DNA from: Patescibacteria group bacterium
Lineage (GTDB): Bacteria; Patescibacteriota; Patescibacteriia; SG8-24
Assembly (NCBI GenBank): GCA_018813785.1
Contig: JAHJAU010000070.1
Span: 1-36,462 of the forward strand
Direction: 5' to 3'
DNA: 36,462 nt
Shown here: piece by piece, positions 2,610 to 28,321 of the stretch
Layout: the number at the start of each line of letters is the position of its first letter
How positions within the stretch are numbered: the first letter of the stretch is position 1
The notes under the pieces: model-generated
Database searches by the model: none
The model's input: only the letters and a program-made list of their open reading frames with translations
Told to the model about the DNA's origin: nothing
Position numbers and translations under genes: made by a program

Positions 2610-2638
2610 AATGTAGCATAATAAAGCGGAATTGTCAA
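2610..2638 (-). promoter_or_regulatory. Sigma70-like promoter for the 1505-2518 gene
   Basis: Minus strand TTGACA-17 nt-TACATT. Confidence 0.7.
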
Positions 2639-2643
2639 CCTTA

Positions 2644-4629
2644 ATGGCCAAAAAACTCCTCACTTGGATCGCTCTAAATGAAAAAACCATCCTTAGGCTG
2701 GCAATTTTGCTTTATTTGATCATCTTTTCTGCCATTTGCCTTTGGAAATATTCGATCTTCGCTTACGATGGTCTGGATCTGGCTATTTTTAATAATGTCT
2801 TCTGGCAAACAATCCACGGACAACCGTTCGCTCAATCAATTCATCCTCATTCATTTTTAGGCGATCACGCCGGGTTTGGTTTATTAATCCTGGTGCCAAT
2901 TTATGCCTGGTTTCAGGATCCAAGAACGTTATTAATTCTACAAACAGCGGCCCTGGCTCTAACCGCCTGGCCAATCTATCTACTGGCCAAGGCTCAAACT
3001 ATTCATCGGCCTTTATCGGCCGAGAAATTAACCGCCGCCACTTGTTGGAAGGAATCTTTTTCTGCCACGGAGAAAAATTATAGAAAATTATTTCCATTGA
3101 TTATTGCTTTGGCCTGGTTATTAAATCCGCTCGTCCAAAACATTAATCTCTTTGAGTTTCATTTACTGCCATTTGCTTTACTGCCGCTGTTTTTTATGTT
3201 GTTGGCTTACGAAAAAAATCAGCGCCGGCGATTTATATTATTCGCTATGGCGGCGATGATTTTCCGCGAAGATGTGGCATTGGTCGTGGCCGCAATTGGC
3301 CTACTGGCTGTACTCGAAAAAAAATCCTGGTGGTGGCGGCTGATACCAACTCTGTTTGGTGCGGCTTGGTTTCTCATGGCCACACGTGTGATTGCATATT
3401 TTGCACCGAACCATAGTTATAAATTTCTGATCTATTATTCTTGGTTGATCGAAACTCCCGGCAATCTATTCAATCATCTGCTGACTCTGGGAAATTTAGA
3501 GATGTTACTCGGCTTCGGCCTGCCGCTTCTTTTTCTTCCATATCTTGCACCCAAAAAACTGATGCTGACGCTTGGGCCGTTGTTACAAATTTTATTAAGC
3601 GCTCCGGGCGGAAGTTCGATCGTAATACAAACGCATTACGCCGTGCTTTTCTTGCCGGCGATTTTTTTGGCAACCATGACTGCAGTAAATAATATTGTGG
3701 TGACCAAAAAAGAAAATAAAAATCGACCCCGCGGCTTTTTTCGCTCGCCGGCATTGGTCGGTTTAATTTTGCTTTCTTCTGCCTATGGAGCTCTGTCTTT
3801 GGGTCCGTTACCAACAGCCTTAACCCATCTAATCTCCGGAGAGGGGCAGACAATTAAGCGCTCAGCCCAGCAAATTTTATCGCTAATTCCAGAAGACGCG
3901 GCAGTTATAGCCAGCTATGAACTATTGCCGCACCTGTCATCTCGCGCGCAAGTTTTTTCGGCTCACTATGTTTTTCTCGGCGTCGAACAATTTGCCACAG
4001 GGCCATATCAGCCATCAACCGACCAACCTCTCTGGCTGGCGTTTGCCGATCACGATTTGTTTACCTATCGGACACAATTCTTAAAAATCGCCTGGGCCAA
4101 ACCATATTACACCGGCGGACGAGAACGCTTGGCCGCGCAGGTCGGATCACTTATGGCTCGTGCTGGTCACTACTCGATTTATGGCCCACTTCAATCTTCA
4201 CTGACCATATCGCCGCCTTTTACTCAACCGCCTGAGCCGCTGCCCAACAAGCCATTAATTTTTGCCGACGGCACGACTATCAATGCTTACCAAACTGAGA
4301 TCAAACCCGACCGACTGCTGATACATTTCGATTTGACGCTCGGCCGGGAACCAAATGAAACAAAAATTTTTACTTTCACCCTAATCGATGCAACGGGAAA
4401 ACAACTCGAAATCGAATCACCGCTCATCAATGATTTGCATCAGCCGATCAACGCTGGTGCGGCCTATGAATTTGTTGCGGACTTTTCTTTCTATAAAAAA
4501 TTAGCCGAGAAAAGTCCGATCTCAATCAAATTAAAAACTCTCGAAGCAACGCAAATTCTTGATGCACTCGGCTCAACGGTCGCTCACCCTGATCAAGAAA
4601 CCAGTCTCGGAATATTTGAACTAGATTAA
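2644..4629 (+). CDS. DUF2079-like polytopic membrane protein
   Basis: Long hydrophobic ORF; N-terminal FAYDGLDLAIFNNVFWQTIHGQPF...HSFLGDHAGFGLLILVPIYAWF resembles DUF2079. ATG at 2644 preferred over the TTG at 2632. Confidence 0.8.
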   Translation: MAKKLLTWIALNEKTILRLAILLYLIIFSAICLWKYSIFAYDGLDLAIFNNVFWQTIHGQPFAQSIHPHSFLGDHAGFGLLILVPIYAWFQDPRTLLILQTAALALTAWPIYLLAKAQTIHRPLSAEKLTAATCWKESFSATEKNYRKLFPLIIALAWLLNPLVQNINLFEFHLLPFALLPLFFMLLAYEKNQRRRFILFAMAAMIFREDVALVVAAIGLLAVLEKKSWWWRLIPTLFGAAWFLMATRVIAYFAPNHSYKFLIYYSWLIETPGNLFNHLLTLGNLEMLLGFGLPLLFLPYLAPKKLMLTLGPLLQILLSAPGGSSIVIQTHYAVLFLPAIFLATMTAVNNIVVTKKENKNRPRGFFRSPALVGLILLSSAYGALSLGPLPTALTHLISGEGQTIKRSAQQILSLIPEDAAVIASYELLPHLSSRAQVFSAHYVFLGVEQFATGPYQPSTDQPLWLAFADHDLFTYRTQFLKIAWAKPYYTGGRERLAAQVGSLMARAGHYSIYGPLQSSLTISPPFTQPPEPLPNKPLIFADGTTINAYQTEIKPDRLLIHFDLTLGREPNETKIFTFTLIDATGKQLEIESPLINDLHQPINAGAAYEFVADFSFYKKLAEKSPISIKLKTLEATQILDALGSTVAHPDQETSLGIFELD

Positions 4630-8585: not shown

Positions 8586-8747
8586 ATTTTGTAGTAACAG
8601 TATAGCGCGGCTTGAATTGAGGTGCTAATTTAGAAGTAAAGCTTAATTTTCTATTCTAATAACGCCGAAAAAGCTAAAACCTGTCACTCATTGACAAACC
8701 CACCTGGGTCTGTCATGGTAGAATGTCCTTCAAAAAGGAGATCGATT

Positions 8748-8960
8748 GTGGGACTATGGCGAACTACAACAACGCGAGAGGTAATCATTCGGGAAACGAC
8801 TGTTGAGGAACGTGAAGATGATGGGTTGCCGGCCGTTGTGACGGCCGCATCCCGGACGACTGGTACTGACATCGTTCCGGCAACCGTCGTCATCGTGGCC
8901 TGTCCGCCGCCGCTTCGGAGCGTTATCCAACTCCGAGCCGCACAAATCTACCGTACTTAA
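8748..8960 (+). CDS. Small hypothetical protein (70 aa, Thr/Val-rich)
   Basis: GTG start 6 nt after AAAAAGGAG; a strong terminator lies downstream at 9058-9115. Confidence 0.5.
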   Translation: MGLWRTTTTREVIIRETTVEEREDDGLPAVVTAASRTTGTDIVPATVVIVACPPPLRSVIQLRAAQIYRT

Positions 8961-9057
8961 TTCGTCCAGCCGTCAGGCTGTGACACCGTCAGGCTGTGAT
9001 GATAGGTACTCCGGAACGAGCCCACTGTTCCATTGATGTACCGCTCTTCCTCCTCCC

Positions 9058-9115
9058 GGGCCCCGAAGTAATGATCCGTAATGGTACGCATCTAACTTCG
9101 GGGTCCAATTTTATT
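9058..9115 (+). terminator. Terminator-like hairpin
   Basis: CCCCGAAGT...ACTTCGGGG stem followed by aattttattttta. Confidence 0.65.
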
Positions 9116-9190
9116 TTTACTCTGGTATCTCACCACGAAACGGCTTATACTAGGTTTGATAAACAATAATCAATTTCACTTTAATTACTC

Positions 9191-16462: not shown

Positions 16463-17293
16463 ATGCGGACGATGAACAAGACCGTCGGAACAGTGATTTC
16501 TGTTCTGGCCACGCTGGCGATTGCGCTCGGCGCCTGCTCTGGCTGTCACCAAACCAGTGGTGGCAGTACCACACCTGAAGGGGAACATGAGTGTCCTCCC
16601 TGCCCACCCTATCTTGGCCAGGATCCAGAAATTGATCCACTGGCTGGTTCAACACTGGACGACGGCTTCACCGATGCTGAACGCACTCAGTTCATTCGAG
16701 ATAACGTTCAGTCTACAGTACGCATCGTGATCGCTAACCACAACAAAAACATCGGCCTTGGCTTTGGCGGTGGAACTGGTGTGGCAATCACGCCCGGTCT
16801 GGTGCTGACTGCAGCCCACGTGGTGGATGAATTTCGATTCATGTATGGCGTGCGACGACTGCTGGCTCGCGATAACCTAACCATTCTGCATCCACGCGCT
16901 CTGGATATGCGAGTCGCGGCTCAGACCAATGAACTGCGCGACGTAGCTCTGCTCGAAACCAGAGATGGAGAACAATTCGATCGACCGATACCCATGTCCC
17001 TAGGGCGAGCGATCAATGATGGTGATCTACTGTGGCAGTTTGGCCGAACGACCCGTTGGTCACGTGGTCGGGTGCTGAACGCAGCCAATCCACGATCGAT
17101 AAAAATCGAATTCACGGTGGCTGGTGGTGATTCCGGTGGCCCGGTGGTTCGACCTGATGGCACGCTGGCCGGCATCATTCTGAGCCGTAGCCTCGATCCA
17201 GAAGACCGTGTAGACGACAACACCAGTAATGTTGCTTTCTTCATCACGCTTGATGAAGCCCTTCGAGGCCTGAGTCAATCACGCCTTCGCTAA
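16463..17293 (+). CDS. Trypsin-like serine protease, predicted lipoprotein
   Basis: Signal with lipobox-like LGAC; LTAAHVVDE (His), LRDVALLE (Asp), AGGDSGGPVV (Ser). Confidence 0.9.
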   Translation: MRTMNKTVGTVISVLATLAIALGACSGCHQTSGGSTTPEGEHECPPCPPYLGQDPEIDPLAGSTLDDGFTDAERTQFIRDNVQSTVRIVIANHNKNIGLGFGGGTGVAITPGLVLTAAHVVDEFRFMYGVRRLLARDNLTILHPRALDMRVAAQTNELRDVALLETRDGEQFDRPIPMSLGRAINDGDLLWQFGRTTRWSRGRVLNAANPRSIKIEFTVAGGDSGGPVVRPDGTLAGIILSRSLDPEDRVDDNTSNVAFFITLDEALRGLSQSRLR

Positions 17294-17299
17294 AAATCC

Positions 17300-17325
17300 C
17301 CCCGCTGCTTAGCGGGGTTTTTTAT
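17300..17325 (+). terminator. Terminator
   Basis: CCCCGCT...AGCGGGG then TTTTTT. Confidence 0.85.
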
Positions 17326-17383
17326 TTTAACTCGCTTTGAATCTATCTCGGCCTAACCGATTTGGATTATCGATGGGCGGAGG

Positions 17384-17452
17384 GTAGCTGCAGAGTTTAT
17401 CTCTGCCCATCCGATTAAAATAATGATAGGCGGAGACAAGCTCCGCAGCTAC
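17384..17452. repeat. Palindromic MITE/REP-like element, copy 1
   Basis: GTAGCTGCAGAG...CTCCGCAGCTAC ends with internal TCTGCCCATCCGAT; related to 19941-20066. Confidence 0.75.
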
Positions 17453-17483
17453 ACGATTGTAAATTAAAATTTAAATAAAAACT

Positions 17484-17512
17484 TTGACTGCATTTTTTTT
17501 CGTTGGTATGAA
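17484..17512 (+). promoter_or_regulatory. Sigma70-like promoter
   Basis: TTGACT-17 nt-TATGAA upstream of the 17553 gene. Confidence 0.6.
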
Positions 17513-17552
17513 GAATGTAGATCTTTTTACTCTCAGCTAAAGGAGGTCTGGG

Positions 17553-18350
17553 ATGTATCATCCCAAACGAACGCTGACAAAGTTATTCTTGTCGGCTCTA
17601 CTTTTGACGGCAGCTTTTGCCGTCACGACATGCACTCACCCTCCAGGAGGCCGGATACCACGTTCACCAGAATGTGTTTACGTTCCGGATCCTCCCGAAA
17701 ATCCGCCCGAAGATCCGTTCGTTGCGGATCAGGATGACGATGGCCTGAATGAGCAACAACGCCTGGATTTTATTCGACGCGGTGTAGCCGCCACCATTCA
17801 AATTAGATCCCGGCGTTACTCAGCCAAGAATGGTTATTCCTTTCACAGTGGCTCCGGTGTTTTCATCGATGATTCACACGTGCTCACGGCTGAGCATGTC
17901 GTGCGCGATACTGTGGATCGCTATGCTATATTACGACGATTGGTCAGCGGCGGATTAAATATCGGTTATCTTCGCACAGAGCGCATCACGATCGTTGCGA
18001 CTAACGCAGAGCATGATGTGGCACTGCTCAGAGTTCACTCTCCGCCAGAAATGGCCTACCCACTTCCGACGGCCAGAAACTGGACACCGCAACATGATGA
18101 ATTACTCTGGCAATTCGGTGTCCGCACTGGTTGGTCTCGCGGCCGTGTAGTGCGACAAGTGCCAGATAATCTGCCGGTCAGCACTCATGGCTTGGTCGAG
18201 ATGAGAATACTTGGCCAGGCTGGTGATTCCGGCGGACCAGTATTGAATGTCCGCGGTGAAATCGTTGGCTTGGTGCTTCGGGGTAACACCGAAGCTGGAC
18301 GTCAATTCTTTGTACCGATCGATACGGCTCTGCAAGCAGTCGGCCGATAA
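17553..18350 (+). CDS. Trypsin-like serine protease, predicted lipoprotein (paralog of 16463-17293)
   Basis: Signal peptide ending in a Cys; LTAEHVVRD, EHDVALLRV, GQAGDSGGPVL; RBS AAAGGAGG. Confidence 0.9.
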   Translation: MYHPKRTLTKLFLSALLLTAAFAVTTCTHPPGGRIPRSPECVYVPDPPENPPEDPFVADQDDDGLNEQQRLDFIRRGVAATIQIRSRRYSAKNGYSFHSGSGVFIDDSHVLTAEHVVRDTVDRYAILRRLVSGGLNIGYLRTERITIVATNAEHDVALLRVHSPPEMAYPLPTARNWTPQHDELLWQFGVRTGWSRGRVVRQVPDNLPVSTHGLVEMRILGQAGDSGGPVLNVRGEIVGLVLRGNTEAGRQFFVPIDTALQAVGR

Positions 18351-19254: not shown

Positions 19255-19312
19255 AAATAACGCCGAAGCTGTCGGCGTTTTTATTTGTGAATAATCACCG
19301 TAAATTAAAAGA

Positions 19313-19879
19313 TCAGTCAGTCTTGGCTGCCTCTTCGGATAAAGATTCCGAGGCGTAAACGAAACCATGCTTGGCCGCTTGCTCGCGACAGCTAAGATCG
19401 ACCTCAGCCAATCGCTCGTCGAAATTATCCGCTCCGCCGAATAGTTCGGAGTAGAAATAATCGAGCGCCACTTCTTCGAAAGGTCCCTGAGGATCGGTTC
19501 CAACTAATACGTACTTACCGTCCGGATCATGCTTGGCGGTCTGAATCGCCGCCTGAAATTGAGGCAGGCCAGCGAACCAATACAGATCAGCTGAGCTCAT
19601 ATTCACTCTGACCACCCAGCATTGCAAATCCATGCGGACGATCGTAATCGGATCAACCACTCCCAAAAGACGCTGTCCGGTTAGTGGGTCAACTAACTCG
19701 TGCCGCTCTTCAGCTTCCCCCACCTCTGGCAATCGAATCTCCGGCGGTGGAATATTCGGCGGTTCTATTCTCGGCACATTCAAATCCGTCCTCTGTCGCG
19801 GCTGATACTTGCGCCAGAAAAAATAGACACAACCGCCCAAAAGTAATCCACCGACTAAAACAAAGATAAACCAAAACAT
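19313..19879 (-). CDS. Hypothetical protein with N-terminal TM anchor
   Basis: MFWFIFVLVGGLLLGGCVYFFWRK; RBS GGAGGTTCTTTA before ATG at 19879. Confidence 0.7.
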   Translation of the reverse strand: MFWFIFVLVGGLLLGGCVYFFWRKYQPRQRTDLNVPRIEPPNIPPPEIRLPEVGEAEERHELVDPLTGQRLLGVVDPITIVRMDLQCWVVRVNMSSADLYWFAGLPQFQAAIQTAKHDPDGKYVLVGTDPQGPFEEVALDYFYSELFGGADNFDERLAEVDLSCREQAAKHGFVYASESLSEEAAKTD

Positions 19880-19940
19880 TAAAGAACCTCCACTAACTGA
19901 GATTACTGGCAAGATTAAGAATGGTCAATTATACAACCGC

Positions 19941-20066
19941 TAGTGACTGCAGAGTTTACCCTGTCGCTCGCGAGCGACAGGGTTTATCTCTGCCCAGCCG
20001 ATCTAATAACGATGGATGGAGGCAAGCCACGTCGCTCGCGAGTGGCGTGGCAAACTCCGCAGCTAC
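19941..20066. repeat. Palindromic MITE/REP-like element, copy 2, with inserted palindromes
   Basis: CTGCAGAGTTT...TCTCTGCCCAGCCGAT...CTCCGCAGCTAC plus a perfect 24-bp palindrome CCCTGTCGCTCGCGAGCGACAGGG (19959-19982) and an imperfect one at 20027-20050. Confidence 0.75.
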
Positions 20067-20078
20067 ATTGCCGCAGAG

Positions 20079-21968: not shown

Positions 21969-22463
21969 TCAGCGCAAATTCAGATATTGCGAGGGCACTT
22001 CCCGGCCTCGCAACGAGAAAATCCCTTCGGCCTGAGCCATGGTCTCGACAGCGTGGTGGCAATGCCGCTCACGCACCGCGGCGATCGGGTCAGGCGTTTC
22101 TTCCTCGGTCTCCAGGATGGCGATGAGTGACGCGAGCAGTGTACCGGTTCGCCCATGTCCGGCGGTGCAGAAGCACAGCACTCGCTCCCCGGTCTGGTGG
22201 CATCTCGCGAGCAGCGGGATTACCCGCCCGCACAAGAACTCCACCCAGTCGTCCGGCACACCGCCGAAGTCCGGCAATTGAGCGGATAGCACCAGGAAAA
22301 AGTTGCCGATGCCCAGTGGGGGCAATTGTTCGGTGAGCGGAATCAGCACATCGAACTCGGACAGGATGTCCGGGTCGAGGTGCATGGCTCCAGCGACATA
22401 GATCGTATAGGGGCCAACCTGGATCGGCTGGCCGGTGTGTGAATGAGCATCCTTCTGTCTCAT
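21969..22463 (-). CDS. Protein tyrosine/dual-specificity phosphatase-like protein
   Basis: VLCFCTAGHGRTGTLLASLIA contains the CX5R P-loop (CTAGHGRT); ATG at 22463 with GGAGG RBS. Confidence 0.82.
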   Translation of the reverse strand: MRQKDAHSHTGQPIQVGPYTIYVAGAMHLDPDILSEFDVLIPLTEQLPPLGIGNFFLVLSAQLPDFGGVPDDWVEFLCGRVIPLLARCHQTGERVLCFCTAGHGRTGTLLASLIAILETEEETPDPIAAVRERHCHHAVETMAQAEGIFSLRGREVPSQYLNLR

Positions 22464-22602
22464 CTCGTCCTCCGCAGCTAATCCGTTACCCCTTGTAACA
22501 GATGAGCAGTGAGAGGGGGAAGCGCTGAAAAGATTCAACGCTTCCCCAGATGCCCCCGAGAGAAATCAGAGAGCGGTTGGGTGATCAGACCGAAACAAAG
22601 AT

Positions 22603-23172: not shown

Positions 23173-25536
23173 CTACCACAGACCGCCGGCTTGTCCCTGA
23201 AGGTACAGCGTGGATATTTCCGGCGAAATGGTACCAGCCGCTTCGCCAGCAATAAATTTGTCGTACAACCCCCTGACGCCACCCTGGTGATCACGCTTGG
23301 TGTCCAATAGTTGATCCAGATGCCAAAGGTTTCCGACCAGAAAATCTTTGGTCTTGTTGAACATCCGACCACCGTTGTGTTGCAGATCGAAAGCGTGATC
23401 CACGAACACCGTGGCTGTAACCTTGCCTTCGAGCCACGACAGGGCGGCCGCGCAGATATCCGCCCACTTGATTCCACCAAACGACGTACTCCATTTCAAA
23501 TGGCGGAAGGCATTTTCTGCCCGCTGCAGAAAAATTATCTGTTGCTCGAGCGGCAGTAACTCCAATTGGTCAGCAACAGACCTCTGCGCTTCGATTCGAT
23601 CAACGCCTTCGTCAATCACCCCATACTTTTGTAGTTCAGCATGGACCAACTCTCGATCTAAGATCAGAGGGTTGCTATAGGCACTGCTTCGAACGTGACG
23701 CAACTCTCCGGCTGCTGCCAAGACGATATAAGTGGCCATCAACTCAGCGGCCTCCTGATGTTCTTGATGCTGGAGCTTTTGGACTGCTCTCGAAAGCTCG
23801 GCTGTGGCATTGAGACTACTACTGGCCGCAGCCATGGCTTCGATCAGGTAGAAGCTCCTCGCCAACTGCACCACGTTAATACTCTCGCCTCGTCGCTCGA
23901 GGGCGATTCGTGGGGCGTGAGCCCTTTTGTCAATCTCCGGCTGATGGATCCTCTTGTACCACCGCAGGAAAATTTTAATTTCTCTACGGTGGATGCCGAA
24001 CTCCATGGGCAGCTCACCCTGAAGCACCACACCACTCGTGCCGTCAACTGAAACCCACTGAAGGGGCGACAGCTTCAAGCATAAGTCCGCCTGAACACCC
24101 ACTACCGCCGGTTTGTTCAGACTCCGAGCCACCACCGCGGCATGCGATGTCGCGCCGCCGACTTCGGTGACGATAGCATCAGCCGCCAGCATCCCTGGTA
24201 GATCATTGGGTGAAGTCTCTGTCCGAAACAGCACCACCGAACAACCAGCTCCCTTCAATTGACGAGCTTGCTCCGAGGTAAGGGCCGGCCGGCCGGTCAC
24301 TGCTCCAGGCGAAGCCGGAATACCGCGAGCCAGAAAACGATTGGGGTCAGCCACAGCCTGAGCCAGCTCATTAGTCCGAAAGACTGACCGATCCAACTGT
24401 GCTAGCTGAGCTGTAGTCATCGCCCTTCGCTCAAGCGCTTGCTCCTTGGTGAAACGCTTTTCCCAAACCATCTGCACGGCATGAGAAACGGCCGCCACCG
24501 GGGTGCGCTTGGCCAGTCGAACCTGGAGAATGAACAGTCGGCCAGATTCGATCGTGAACTCTACATCCACGACGTCGTCAAAGTGCTGTTCGAGCAGTAT
24601 ACAGATCTGACTCAGCTCCTGATAAACCCCGGGATTCCAACTTTCGAGTTCAGCGATCGGTCGCGGTGTCTTAACACCAGCCACCACATCTTCGCCTTGA
24701 GCGTTTGGCAGCCACTCACCATAGAGCTCGCGCTCGCCGGTGGCGACATTGCGAGAAAAAACAACTCCAGTTCCGGAATCGTCTCCTCGATTACCGAACA
24801 CCATGGCTTGAATGTTAGCGGCGGTTCCGAGCCAACTGGGAATGTTGTTGGCTCGGCGATAAGCCCGGGCACGCTCTGACTCCCAACTGCGAAACACAGC
24901 ACGGCTGGCCATCGTTAACTGAGTCCAGACGTCGTCTTCCATGGAACCGGCGCGACGCTGAATCAGTTGCCGACAGTTGCGGCAGAACTTCTTCAGAGCT
25001 CTGACATGGAACGACTCACGATCGTGATCGCACCCGTTCTTCTGCCACAACTTATCAAACTCACTGGCTGCGATCCCATGAACCACGGTACCGTAACTGA
25101 CCAGAAATCGCCGATAGCAATCCCAAGCGAACCGTTCGTCTCCGGTTTCCCTGGCCAGCGCCAGAACTGTGTCCGGATTAAGTCCGAGATTCAGGATTGT
25201 ATCCATCATCCCGGGCATGGAGTGCTCGGCGCCGGACCTGACCGACACCAGCAGCGGCTTGACCAAATGACCAAAGCCACGACCAGTCGACTGCTCCAAT
25301 CCTTCCATTTCTCGAACGATCTGACCAAACTGCCGACGCGGCAGATGGCCATGCTGTAGTGACGACCGCCCCACGCTTGTGGTGACGGTGAAACCGGGCG
25401 GCATGGGTACACCAAGGTGCACCAGTTCCGCCAAGGAGAAACCCTTGCCGCCACGCTTGGCGGCTGACAGATGGGCGGAACTTTCGAATCCGCAAACCAC
25501 CTGACGATTCCGCCTGCGAGACGCTTTCTTTCCCAT
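23173..25536 (-). CDS. Pyruvate,phosphate dikinase-like protein: ATP-binding + phosphohistidine domains fused to an unrecognised C-terminal domain
   Basis: GGKGFSLAELVHLGVPMPPGFTVTT, PLLVSVRSGAEHSMPGMMDTILNLGLN, VEFTIESGRLFILQVR, GGATSHAAVVARSLNKPAVVG. The C-terminal ~270 aa show no PEP-utilising TIM-barrel motifs. Confidence 0.9.
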   Translation of the reverse strand: MGKKASRRRNRQVVCGFESSAHLSAAKRGGKGFSLAELVHLGVPMPPGFTVTTSVGRSSLQHGHLPRRQFGQIVREMEGLEQSTGRGFGHLVKPLLVSVRSGAEHSMPGMMDTILNLGLNPDTVLALARETGDERFAWDCYRRFLVSYGTVVHGIAASEFDKLWQKNGCDHDRESFHVRALKKFCRNCRQLIQRRAGSMEDDVWTQLTMASRAVFRSWESERARAYRRANNIPSWLGTAANIQAMVFGNRGDDSGTGVVFSRNVATGERELYGEWLPNAQGEDVVAGVKTPRPIAELESWNPGVYQELSQICILLEQHFDDVVDVEFTIESGRLFILQVRLAKRTPVAAVSHAVQMVWEKRFTKEQALERRAMTTAQLAQLDRSVFRTNELAQAVADPNRFLARGIPASPGAVTGRPALTSEQARQLKGAGCSVVLFRTETSPNDLPGMLAADAIVTEVGGATSHAAVVARSLNKPAVVGVQADLCLKLSPLQWVSVDGTSGVVLQGELPMEFGIHRREIKIFLRWYKRIHQPEIDKRAHAPRIALERRGESINVVQLARSFYLIEAMAAASSSLNATAELSRAVQKLQHQEHQEAAELMATYIVLAAAGELRHVRSSAYSNPLILDRELVHAELQKYGVIDEGVDRIEAQRSVADQLELLPLEQQIIFLQRAENAFRHLKWSTSFGGIKWADICAAALSWLEGKVTATVFVDHAFDLQHNGGRMFNKTKDFLVGNLWHLDQLLDTKRDHQGGVRGLYDKFIAGEAAGTISPEISTLYLQGQAGGLW

Positions 25537-25696: not shown

Positions 25697-25725
25697 AATA
25701 TAGCAAATCTCTGCGTAATTGTCAA
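25697..25725 (-). promoter_or_regulatory. Sigma70-like promoter for the PPDK-like gene
   Basis: Minus strand TTGACA-17 nt-TATATT. Confidence 0.75.
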
Positions 25726-25742
25726 GATTATTAAACAAGTGA

Positions 25743-25767
25743 CCCAGCTCCAATTTCTGGAGCTGGG
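25743..25767 (-). terminator. Terminator hairpin ending the candidate ncRNA
   Basis: CCCAGCTCCA-5 nt-TGGAGCTGGG 10-bp perfect stem; the following tract TCACTTGTTT is only weakly U-rich. Confidence 0.6.
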
Positions 25768-27160
25768 CCGTAAGGTAACAAAAAAATTTTCTTAGTGGCC
25801 ATTTGTCATGCGCCCCCAAGGCCGTGCGGAGGCACTTCCGTTTTTCAGGTCAGCGCCATGACTGCGCTTTTTCGATCGAATGTAGTAGTTCGACATCGAA
25901 CGTCGATCTAGACCTGAAGCATCATCAGCCTGAACCAAGGCCGAGAATTGACATCCTCGTGGAAGTAGCGAGGCTGTCCAAGCGGCAAGAATCGCTTCCG
26001 TGGTGGTTTGGTGACCACCTTTTCCACTTTCCTATTTCTTGAAGGGCTTGTCGCAACGGGCTTTACCCATCGCCTAGGTTCATCCTTCAGCTAAAACCTG
26101 ACCAATCATAGACTCATCCACTCGTCTTGTATAACTTTTCAAAAGCGTTATACATCAGCGTGAATAAGCCAAGCACTCTTCTCCGCCCTTTATTAATTAT
26201 TTGCATTGAAAAGTGTTACTGATCAGGCCCTAACCCCGTCTGTCCGGGGTGCGGAGACGCCACTTCCGCTTCAGTTGTCCCATCAATCCAGTGATGGGCG
26301 TGAAATCGGTCGCTGGTAGAATGACAGACTCCAACCAACTCCACTGTTTCAGTGGCAGACACAGTACACCGCCATCAAACAGCTTCCCTCTTTTTAACGG
26401 TGCCTTCACCGAGGGAGATGAAAACACCGCATAAACTCACCTCACCAACGGTTTTATGAATTCCGCTGGCAAAATGATCGGACGGGGCCTATTCGGTCTC
26501 TATCATTCAGGCGATTTCCAACCGCCGGGTTGAAAAAACCTTTCGGGTACCCTTAGCCGCCAGGTGTCTAGCCGTCGGCTAACTCGATTCAGCTTTCAGT
26601 TGATGATTCAGTTCGGTTGCGAGCCGTACCAGATCGTCAATCTCGGTTCTTGATACCTGCCCGATTTAGGCATCAAGCAATAAACCGCAATGACCTCTGA
26701 ATCTTAAAGTCACCGTCTCTTTATCGACCCGCCGGTCGCGTAGGGAAAGAGACTACCCAGCTATTTGATGAAAGTTCTCTGATCGTCCTACCCAGGATGA
26801 TCCAACTCCCACCTTGATGGCCGATCCGGACACGCCGCTGCCCGACCTAATCACTCCTCGGTCTGCTTACCAAAAAGAAAATAGGTTTTAATTTGCTCGT
26901 TTACTCCTTGAGCTCAGTGTGCAGCGGGGATTTCACCCGCACTCCCTCCACGCCTGGTTTATAAAAATTTTTTACCAGGTTGAACGGATTCAGCTTTGGT
27001 CTGAACACACAAACGAGCGGACCTTTTTAAATAAGTGCTTAGAGCAGCGCACCTATCGAGCTGACTTTTTGTTAACGGGCTCCGTCAGCGATTGAGCCCT
27101 AGTAAACGCACATCCTAATCCTCCCTCTTTATCTGAACCTGCGACGACGTTGTCGCAGAG
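25743..27160 (-). ncRNA. Candidate giant structured noncoding RNA (~1.4 kb)
   Basis: No credible ORF. Promoter TTGACT-17-TATTTT at 27193-27165; 5' hairpin CTGCGAC/GTCGCAG right after the predicted +1; many local hairpins; long-range perfect helices 26895-26902/27011-27018, 26605-26611/26697-26703 and 25844-25851/25911-25918, each enclosing further hairpins; 3' terminator hairpin 25743-25767. Confidence 0.75.
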
Positions 27161-27164
27161 AAAA

Positions 27165-27193
27165 AAAATAACATAAAAAGTCGGATTAGTCAA
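27165..27193 (-). promoter_or_regulatory. Sigma70-like promoter of the candidate ncRNA
   Basis: Minus strand TTGACT-17 nt-TATTTT. Confidence 0.7.
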
Positions 27194-27208: not shown

Positions 27209-28321
27209 CCCCAATTCAATACATAACCGAACACTTCAGTGTAACATTGCCGATTAGGCATAACTGTAGTAATCATGTCAAAAAAGACGCATTTGAAGGA
27301 GTTCGAGAGGGAGAAGATCGAGTACTGGCTGAGGCTGGGGTTCGGCAACAACGAGATCGCCAGGAAGCTGGCTCGCAGCGGATCGTCAGTGTCCGACGAG
27401 ATCCGCCGCAACAGCAACCCAGACGGTAAGTATACGGCGGCGGATGCCCAGCGCCGAGCCGACCAGAGACGAGAGCGAAAGAAGGGTCGGAAGCTCGAAA
27501 GGGACGCCGTGCTACACGACTACGTAGTCTCCCTGCTCCGCGGCGACGGCATGCTACAGGGCTGGGCGCCGGACGCGATCGCCGGGCGGCTGAAGCACTA
27601 CCCAGAGCTGGTGCCGGAGGAGTTGCGGGGGAAGACCGTCTCGCACGAGGCGATATACCAGTACATATACGAAGGCGAGGGAAAGTGGGAGGCGCTGTAC
27701 CACCACCTGCCCAGGAAGCGCAGCCGCAGGAGGATCAAAGAGGGCAGGAAAACGCGTCAGCAGAGCAAAATACCGAACAGGGTGAGCATCCGGCTACGAC
27801 CGGCCGAAGTCAATGAGAGGAAGACGTTCGGCGACTGGGAAAGCGACACCTTCGAGGGTACGGGATCGGCGTGCGGATCTGTGCAGGTGGAGCGCAAGTC
27901 GAGGAAGATTCACCTGCACAGGACGGCGGACAAGACCAAGGAGGAGACCGAACGAGCCATCAGGCAGACCATCGAGTCATATCCGGAATACCTGCGGGGC
28001 GAGGCGTTCCGGACGATGACCCTCGACAACGGTGGCGAGGGCGCGAACCACGGGAAATTGAGGAGGGAATACGGCATCGACACCTACTTCTGCGACCCGT
28101 ACTGCTCGTGGCAGAAGGGCTCGGTGGAGAACGCCATCGGCCTCGTGCGGCTGAGGTTCATTCCAAAGAAAACAAATCTCTCGACCCTTTCGGATCGAGA
28201 GTTCATGCTCATGGAGGACTTCCTGAATGACATGCCCGGAAAGTCTCTCGGGCACCTTACGCCGAATGAGGTCGCGGCGCAATATTTGTGAGAGGTGTTC
28301 GGTTATTAGCTTGAATTTGGG
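27209..28321 (+). mobile_element. IS30-family insertion sequence
   Basis: Imperfect terminal inverted repeats CCCCAATTCAATACATAACCGAACACTTC and (reverse complement of right end) CCCAAATTCAAGCTAATAACCGAACACCTC flank the transposase ORF. Exact ends and target duplication not resolved. Confidence 0.85.
27275..28291 (+). CDS. IS30-family transposase
   Basis: MSKKTHLKEFEREKIEYWLRLGFGNNEIARKLARSGSSVSDEIRRN HTH; FGDWESDTFEG, TLDNGGEGANH, YFCDPYCSWQKGSVENAIGLVRLRFIPKKT. Confidence 0.96.
   Translation: MSKKTHLKEFEREKIEYWLRLGFGNNEIARKLARSGSSVSDEIRRNSNPDGKYTAADAQRRADQRRERKKGRKLERDAVLHDYVVSLLRGDGMLQGWAPDAIAGRLKHYPELVPEELRGKTVSHEAIYQYIYEGEGKWEALYHHLPRKRSRRRIKEGRKTRQQSKIPNRVSIRLRPAEVNERKTFGDWESDTFEGTGSACGSVQVERKSRKIHLHRTADKTKEETERAIRQTIESYPEYLRGEAFRTMTLDNGGEGANHGKLRREYGIDTYFCDPYCSWQKGSVENAIGLVRLRFIPKKTNLSTLSDREFMLMEDFLNDMPGKSLGHLTPNEVAAQYL

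Follow-up and report, generated by a model that had tools for sequence, protein, structure and literature searches.

To our knowledge, very few RNAs longer than 500 nt and of unknown function have been described from bacteria or phages, and most of these are without a known partner gene set. GOLLD, ROOL and OLE are large, densely structured and non-coding, and the first two are described from bacteria as well as phages (PMC12286853). On the protein side, the closest described system is pyruvate, phosphate dikinase (PPDK), a gene for which is also carried by Vibrio phages, where it has been described as metabolic (PMC12038007). Here we describe a locus in a 36,462-nt stretch of contig JAHJAU010000070.1 (assembly GCA_018813785.1), which we refer to as the window, from a Patescibacteria group bacterium with a genome of ~1.19 Mb (84 contigs, 97% complete). 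Judged from its sequence, the minus strand of the locus encodes what looks like a large structured RNA of a new kind, matching no Rfam family and placed directly upstream of phage-type phosphotransfer genes (Table 1).

Table 1. Features of the candidate RNA, its neighboring cassette and the adjacent insertion sequence, in window coordinates.
Feature	Position	Strand	Basis
Candidate structured non-coding RNA, ~1,426 nt, 5' end near 27158, 3' end near 25735	25735..27160	minus	fold z, no ORF
Reported segment, part of 5' multibranch domain (RNA nt 143-266)	26895..27018	minus	folding
Rival closing helix AGTAAACG/CGTTTACT	26898-26905 with 27101-27108	minus	p from folding
Long-range helix, ~30 bp, RNA nt 336-367 with 1204-1237, closing a ~900-nt central region	25924..26825	minus	p 0.74-0.98
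Repeated motif copy 1, CTGAA-N-CGGAAGTG-N-TCCGC	26251..26274	minus	shuffles
Repeated motif copy 2	25826..25848	minus	shuffles
Promoter-like site TTGACT-17-TATTTT, TG before -10, 9/12 matches	27165..27193	minus	motif scan
Terminator-like hairpin, 13 bp, short interrupted T tract	25741..25769	minus	p 0.99 in full-length fold
Second promoter-like site TTGACA-17-TATATT, 11/12, TG; between RNA and PPDK-C	25697..25725	minus	motif scan
PPDK-C: PPDK ATP-grasp and His mobile domain, non-PPDK C-terminal domain (aa ~510-787)	23173..25536	minus	profile/structure matches
Small cassette protein, 136 aa	22603..23013	minus	homologs in phages L072 and L080
DSP/PTPase-like phosphatase of cassette	21969..22538	minus	homology
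IS30-family insertion sequence just upstream of RNA promoter	27223..28306	plus	transposase 27275-28291, NF033563 E 1e-66; 28-nt imperfect inverted repeats

The candidate RNA occupies a non-coding stretch of ~1.7 kb between the PPDK-like gene and the IS30 element, and every ORF between 25565 and 27275 falls short of 80 aa. The insertion sequence is regarded as a neighbor rather than a part of the RNA. Elsewhere in the window, two adjacent trypsin-like protease genes (16463-18350, plus) are probably a tandem duplication. Folding of the 1,426 nt of the minus strand gives a minimum free energy of -539 kcal/mol, a significant result against dinucleotide shuffles (z -8.3), with a clear preference over the plus strand of the same stretch (z -5.8); for comparison, genes in the window have z values of -0.7 to -3.5 and its other stretches -2.1 to -4.5. 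Two of the latter fold moderately strongly (19300-20070, z ~-4.5, and 8600-9180, z ~-4.2). The predicted fold includes a long-range helix that would close the central region of ~900 nt, and a motif present in two copies is found twice in the window versus never in 100 shuffles of it, is absent from the rest of the genome and is confined to the candidate RNA. An excess of unpaired A residues was also considered as a strand marker and was dropped, the same level being reached in shuffles.

It was within the 5' part of this region that the initial annotation had placed a domain of a candidate RNA, proposing that an exact 8-bp helix closes a multi-way junction. The complementarity is exactly as described (GCTCGTTT at 26895-26902 with AAACGAGC at 27011-27018), and the enclosed hairpins are present: GCGGG/CCCGC (26924-26928/26936-26940), CCTGGT/ACCAGG (26953-26958/26974-26979) and TTCAG/CTGAA (26989-26993/27001-27005). 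Taken alone, the minus strand of the 124-nt segment folds to -44.0 kcal/mol (z -3.6), a value reached by 1 of 500 dinucleotide shuffles; the plus strand gives -39.1 kcal/mol (z -3.2), reached by 2 of 500. When the surrounding 200 nt are shuffled, a perfect 8-mer pair across a long loop turns up in 4% of cases, and shuffling the 1.4-kb region raises this to 32%; the 8-bp match on its own is only mildly unusual and is weak evidence. Considering these rates together with the z values, the layout of the segment stands above chance as a fold, and the single helix is the weak element. Placement of the segment toward the 5' end of a large, structured RNA is supported, and the inner hairpins persist across the contexts folded, with pairing probabilities of ~0.9-1.0 for CCTGGT/ACCAGG and ~0.8 or more for GCGGG/CCCGC; TTCAG/CTGAA reaches only ~0.6 in the full minus-strand RNA. 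The exact 8-bp closure did not survive the addition of flanking sequence, its probability being ~0.99 only for the isolated 124-151 nt and 0.00-0.18 once the 5' flank is included. A rival helix, which shares five bases with the reported arm such that the two are mutually exclusive, is preferred over it both in the full-length minus-strand RNA (p 0.74 vs. 0.18) and in a fold of 26850-27160 on the same strand (0.99 vs. 0.00). In these predictions either pairing would close a multibranch domain. With the rival preferred and the inner hairpins persisting, a multibranch 5' domain is likely and a two-state switch between the exclusive helices is possible; the multibranch character of the proposed junction is thus retained, whereas the closing helix given for it is disfavored against its rival.

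A promoter-like site and a terminator-like hairpin bracket ~1.42 kb, and a second promoter-like site then follows ahead of PPDK-C. Taken one by one, the promoter and terminator matches are weak, the upstream promoter-like site because the region has three such sites where 1.5 are expected. Their order and orientation agree, however, and the promoter-terminator-promoter arrangement in the window favors a separate RNA.

The first gene downstream departs from an ordinary PPDK. The protein we term PPDK-C carries the N-terminal ATP-grasp and phospho-histidine domains of PPDK: residues 27-543 align with the solved PPDK structures 1KBL, 1DIK and 5JVL (E ~1e-109), and the His-domain motif TSHAAVVAR is retained. 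The pyruvate/PEP-binding barrel was not found, with no PEP-utilizers C-terminal match and with a TIGR01828 match that ends at residue 561 and is below cut-off. In its place is a domain predicted to be all-helical, for which a PDB fold search gave no match. Both halves of PPDK-C match phage families (phrog_18609 and phrog_20946), the C-terminal domain corresponding to phrog_20946, a family of unknown function. No known anti-phage defense model was matched by the cassette proteins in PADLOC.

Full-length PPDK-C was found in only one other place among 381 genomes of the class, a distant genome (G174), and in two phages in IMG/VR (L072 and L080). In all four loci, including the window, PPDK-C has genes for a PTPase-like protein and a small protein beside it and long non-coding DNA upstream, measuring 1.4 kb in the window, 1.13 kb in G174, 0.5 kb in L080 and ~0.37 kb in L072. 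Ordinary phage PPDK genes mostly have an upstream gap of <100 nt. The upstream stretch is clearly structured in two of the three other loci, with z -7.3 on the strand of the gene vs. -5.6 on the opposite strand in G174 and -5.4 vs. -3.9 in L080; that of L072 taken alone is not unusually stable (z -0.8), and it has no Rfam match at gathering score. The structured stretch of G174 (L048, 3860-4990, minus) may contain a short ORF (MHCLKQQTVGAEPTSQK) preceded by a good RBS. In L072, two LAGLIDADG endonuclease genes in opposite orientation (2625-4184) lie just before the upstream RNA.

These loci also bear on a different account, in which the PPDK-C operon would be controlled in cis by this RNA as a very long leader resembling a riboswitch or attenuator, with the RNA sensing a signal, the hairpin near 25741-25769 gating PPDK-C transcription and the two exclusive 5' helices acting as the switch. 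The structured stretch reaches the start of PPDK-C in G174 and in both phages with no terminator found between the two, a contiguity that favors a leader, and the window offers an attenuator-like hairpin just ahead of PPDK-C as well as two exclusive helices with one arm in common. We consider a leader possible but somewhat unlikely. At 1.1-1.4 kb it would far exceed every riboswitch known to us, it matches no cis-regulatory or riboswitch family in Rfam, and in the window the stronger promoter-like site follows the hairpin, so that PPDK-C need not rely on read-through.

Relatives of the RNA itself are scarce. No nucleotide relative of the window RNA was found in 57 related genomes, the family, the 381 class genomes, phages or plasmids, and a covariance model of the reported segment (R1) found only itself in the class genomes. 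Weak blastn matches in L003 and L004 (D-Ala-D-Ala ligase-like genes), L015 and L016 fall inside protein genes and were taken as chance. Scanning viral and genome collections for the two-copy motif gave 28 matches, nearly all under long ORFs and without wider RNA similarity. The block GGTTTTAGC..GGNTGAACCTA, common to the window and G174, is their best local match, and the alignment score lies within the shuffle range; the single viral match to this block falls in a coding gene. Smith-Waterman scores among the window, G174 and phage RNAs are likewise inside the shuffle range, a model of the L080 core did not find the window RNA and did not find that of G174 at significance, and a search with the G174 RNA across the 86 genomes of its order gave no convincing relative beyond itself. 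The upstream RNAs of the two phages (L080, 5504-6003; L072, 4120-4500) are homologous, as a single-sequence covariance model recovers one from the other at the same position (16.3 bits, E 0.0034 in 103 kb). Their shared position makes common descent of all four upstream RNAs plausible, but those of the window and G174 align neither with each other nor with those of the phages above chance.

The lack of homologs and of covariation is what would be expected if the region were non-functional, that is, DNA adjoining an insertion sequence and either decayed or biased in composition, with hairpins due to chance or to DNA-level structure. Promoter and terminator counts near background and the z values of -4.2 and -4.5 reached by other window stretches point the same way. 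Such an origin is nonetheless improbable given a z of -8.3 over 1.4 kb, the marked strand preference, the repeated motif and the failure to recognize a pseudogene; a pseudogene was rejected on the basis of a Pfam scan of five of the six frames of the stretch, which gave no match.

Known RNAs were also sought at the locus. Rfam gave no match for the candidate RNA, whether at gathering score or with E relaxed to 10, and neither Rfam nor ARAGORN detected group I or group II introns, tmRNA, tRNA, rRNA, RNase P or other curated families. The GOLLD, ROOL and OLE models are among those without a match up to E 10, which weighs against the RNA being a member or close analog of these ornate RNAs, a self-assembling cage or oligomer sharing a mobile element with PPDK-C neighbors that would be incidental cargo. 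The candidate does recall GOLLD and ROOL in its size and structural density, in having separate transcription signals, in its link to phage-type genes and in its sporadic distribution (PMC12286853). However, four lineages pair these genes with long non-coding stretches, an observation difficult to reconcile with incidental cargo, and we regard membership in this group as improbable.

The explanation that we prefer, and on which our confidence is evenly balanced, is a phage-type cassette composed of PPDK-C, the small protein, the PTPase-like phosphatase and, as its non-coding part, the RNA. The minus strand would give rise to the ~1.4-kb RNA as a transcript of its own, which would fold into a large multidomain particle, with the 5' multibranch domain followed by the helix-closed central region. 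It may then serve as a scaffold, guide or substrate for PPDK-C, which would keep the transfer of phosphate from ATP to histidine, its pyruvate/PEP barrel having been exchanged for a domain that presumably binds an acceptor, and the PTPase-like phosphatase would reverse or limit this transfer. That the stretch is transcribed, that the transcript is independent and contacts the proteins, and what is phosphorylated, are steps that we infer. A broader proposal is that the loci represent a new class of giant RNAs that form one system with a re-purposed PPDK and a phosphatase, common to phages and bacteria with small genomes, where a phospho-histidine transfer enzyme would have the RNA as its scaffold or substrate; we put this forward as an unlikely extension.

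Overall, the candidate RNA resembles GOLLD, ROOL and OLE in being large, densely structured and non-coding, with GOLLD and ROOL also reported from both bacteria and phages. It differs from them in having no Rfam match, in its length of ~1.4 kb and in its position upstream of a PPDK-C/PTPase cassette, and it is known here from sequence alone. With respect to the enzyme, PPDK-C and pyruvate, phosphate dikinase are alike in their N-terminal part, whereas the PEP/pyruvate barrel of the latter is swapped for the all-helical domain. A further comparison is provided by Vibrio phage vB_VneS_J26, Ares1 and their relatives, in which the PPDK ATP-grasp and His domains adjoin a PTPase gene and a protein resembling the C-terminal domain of PPDK-C; there this domain is a separate protein and, unlike in the PPDK-C loci, <100 nt of non-coding DNA precede the PPDK gene. 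If our explanation is true, some phage genes annotated as metabolic PPDK would be part of a phosphotransfer system that uses another acceptor. The candidate RNA comes with partner genes that are both conserved and biochemically tractable, and its role is therefore directly testable.
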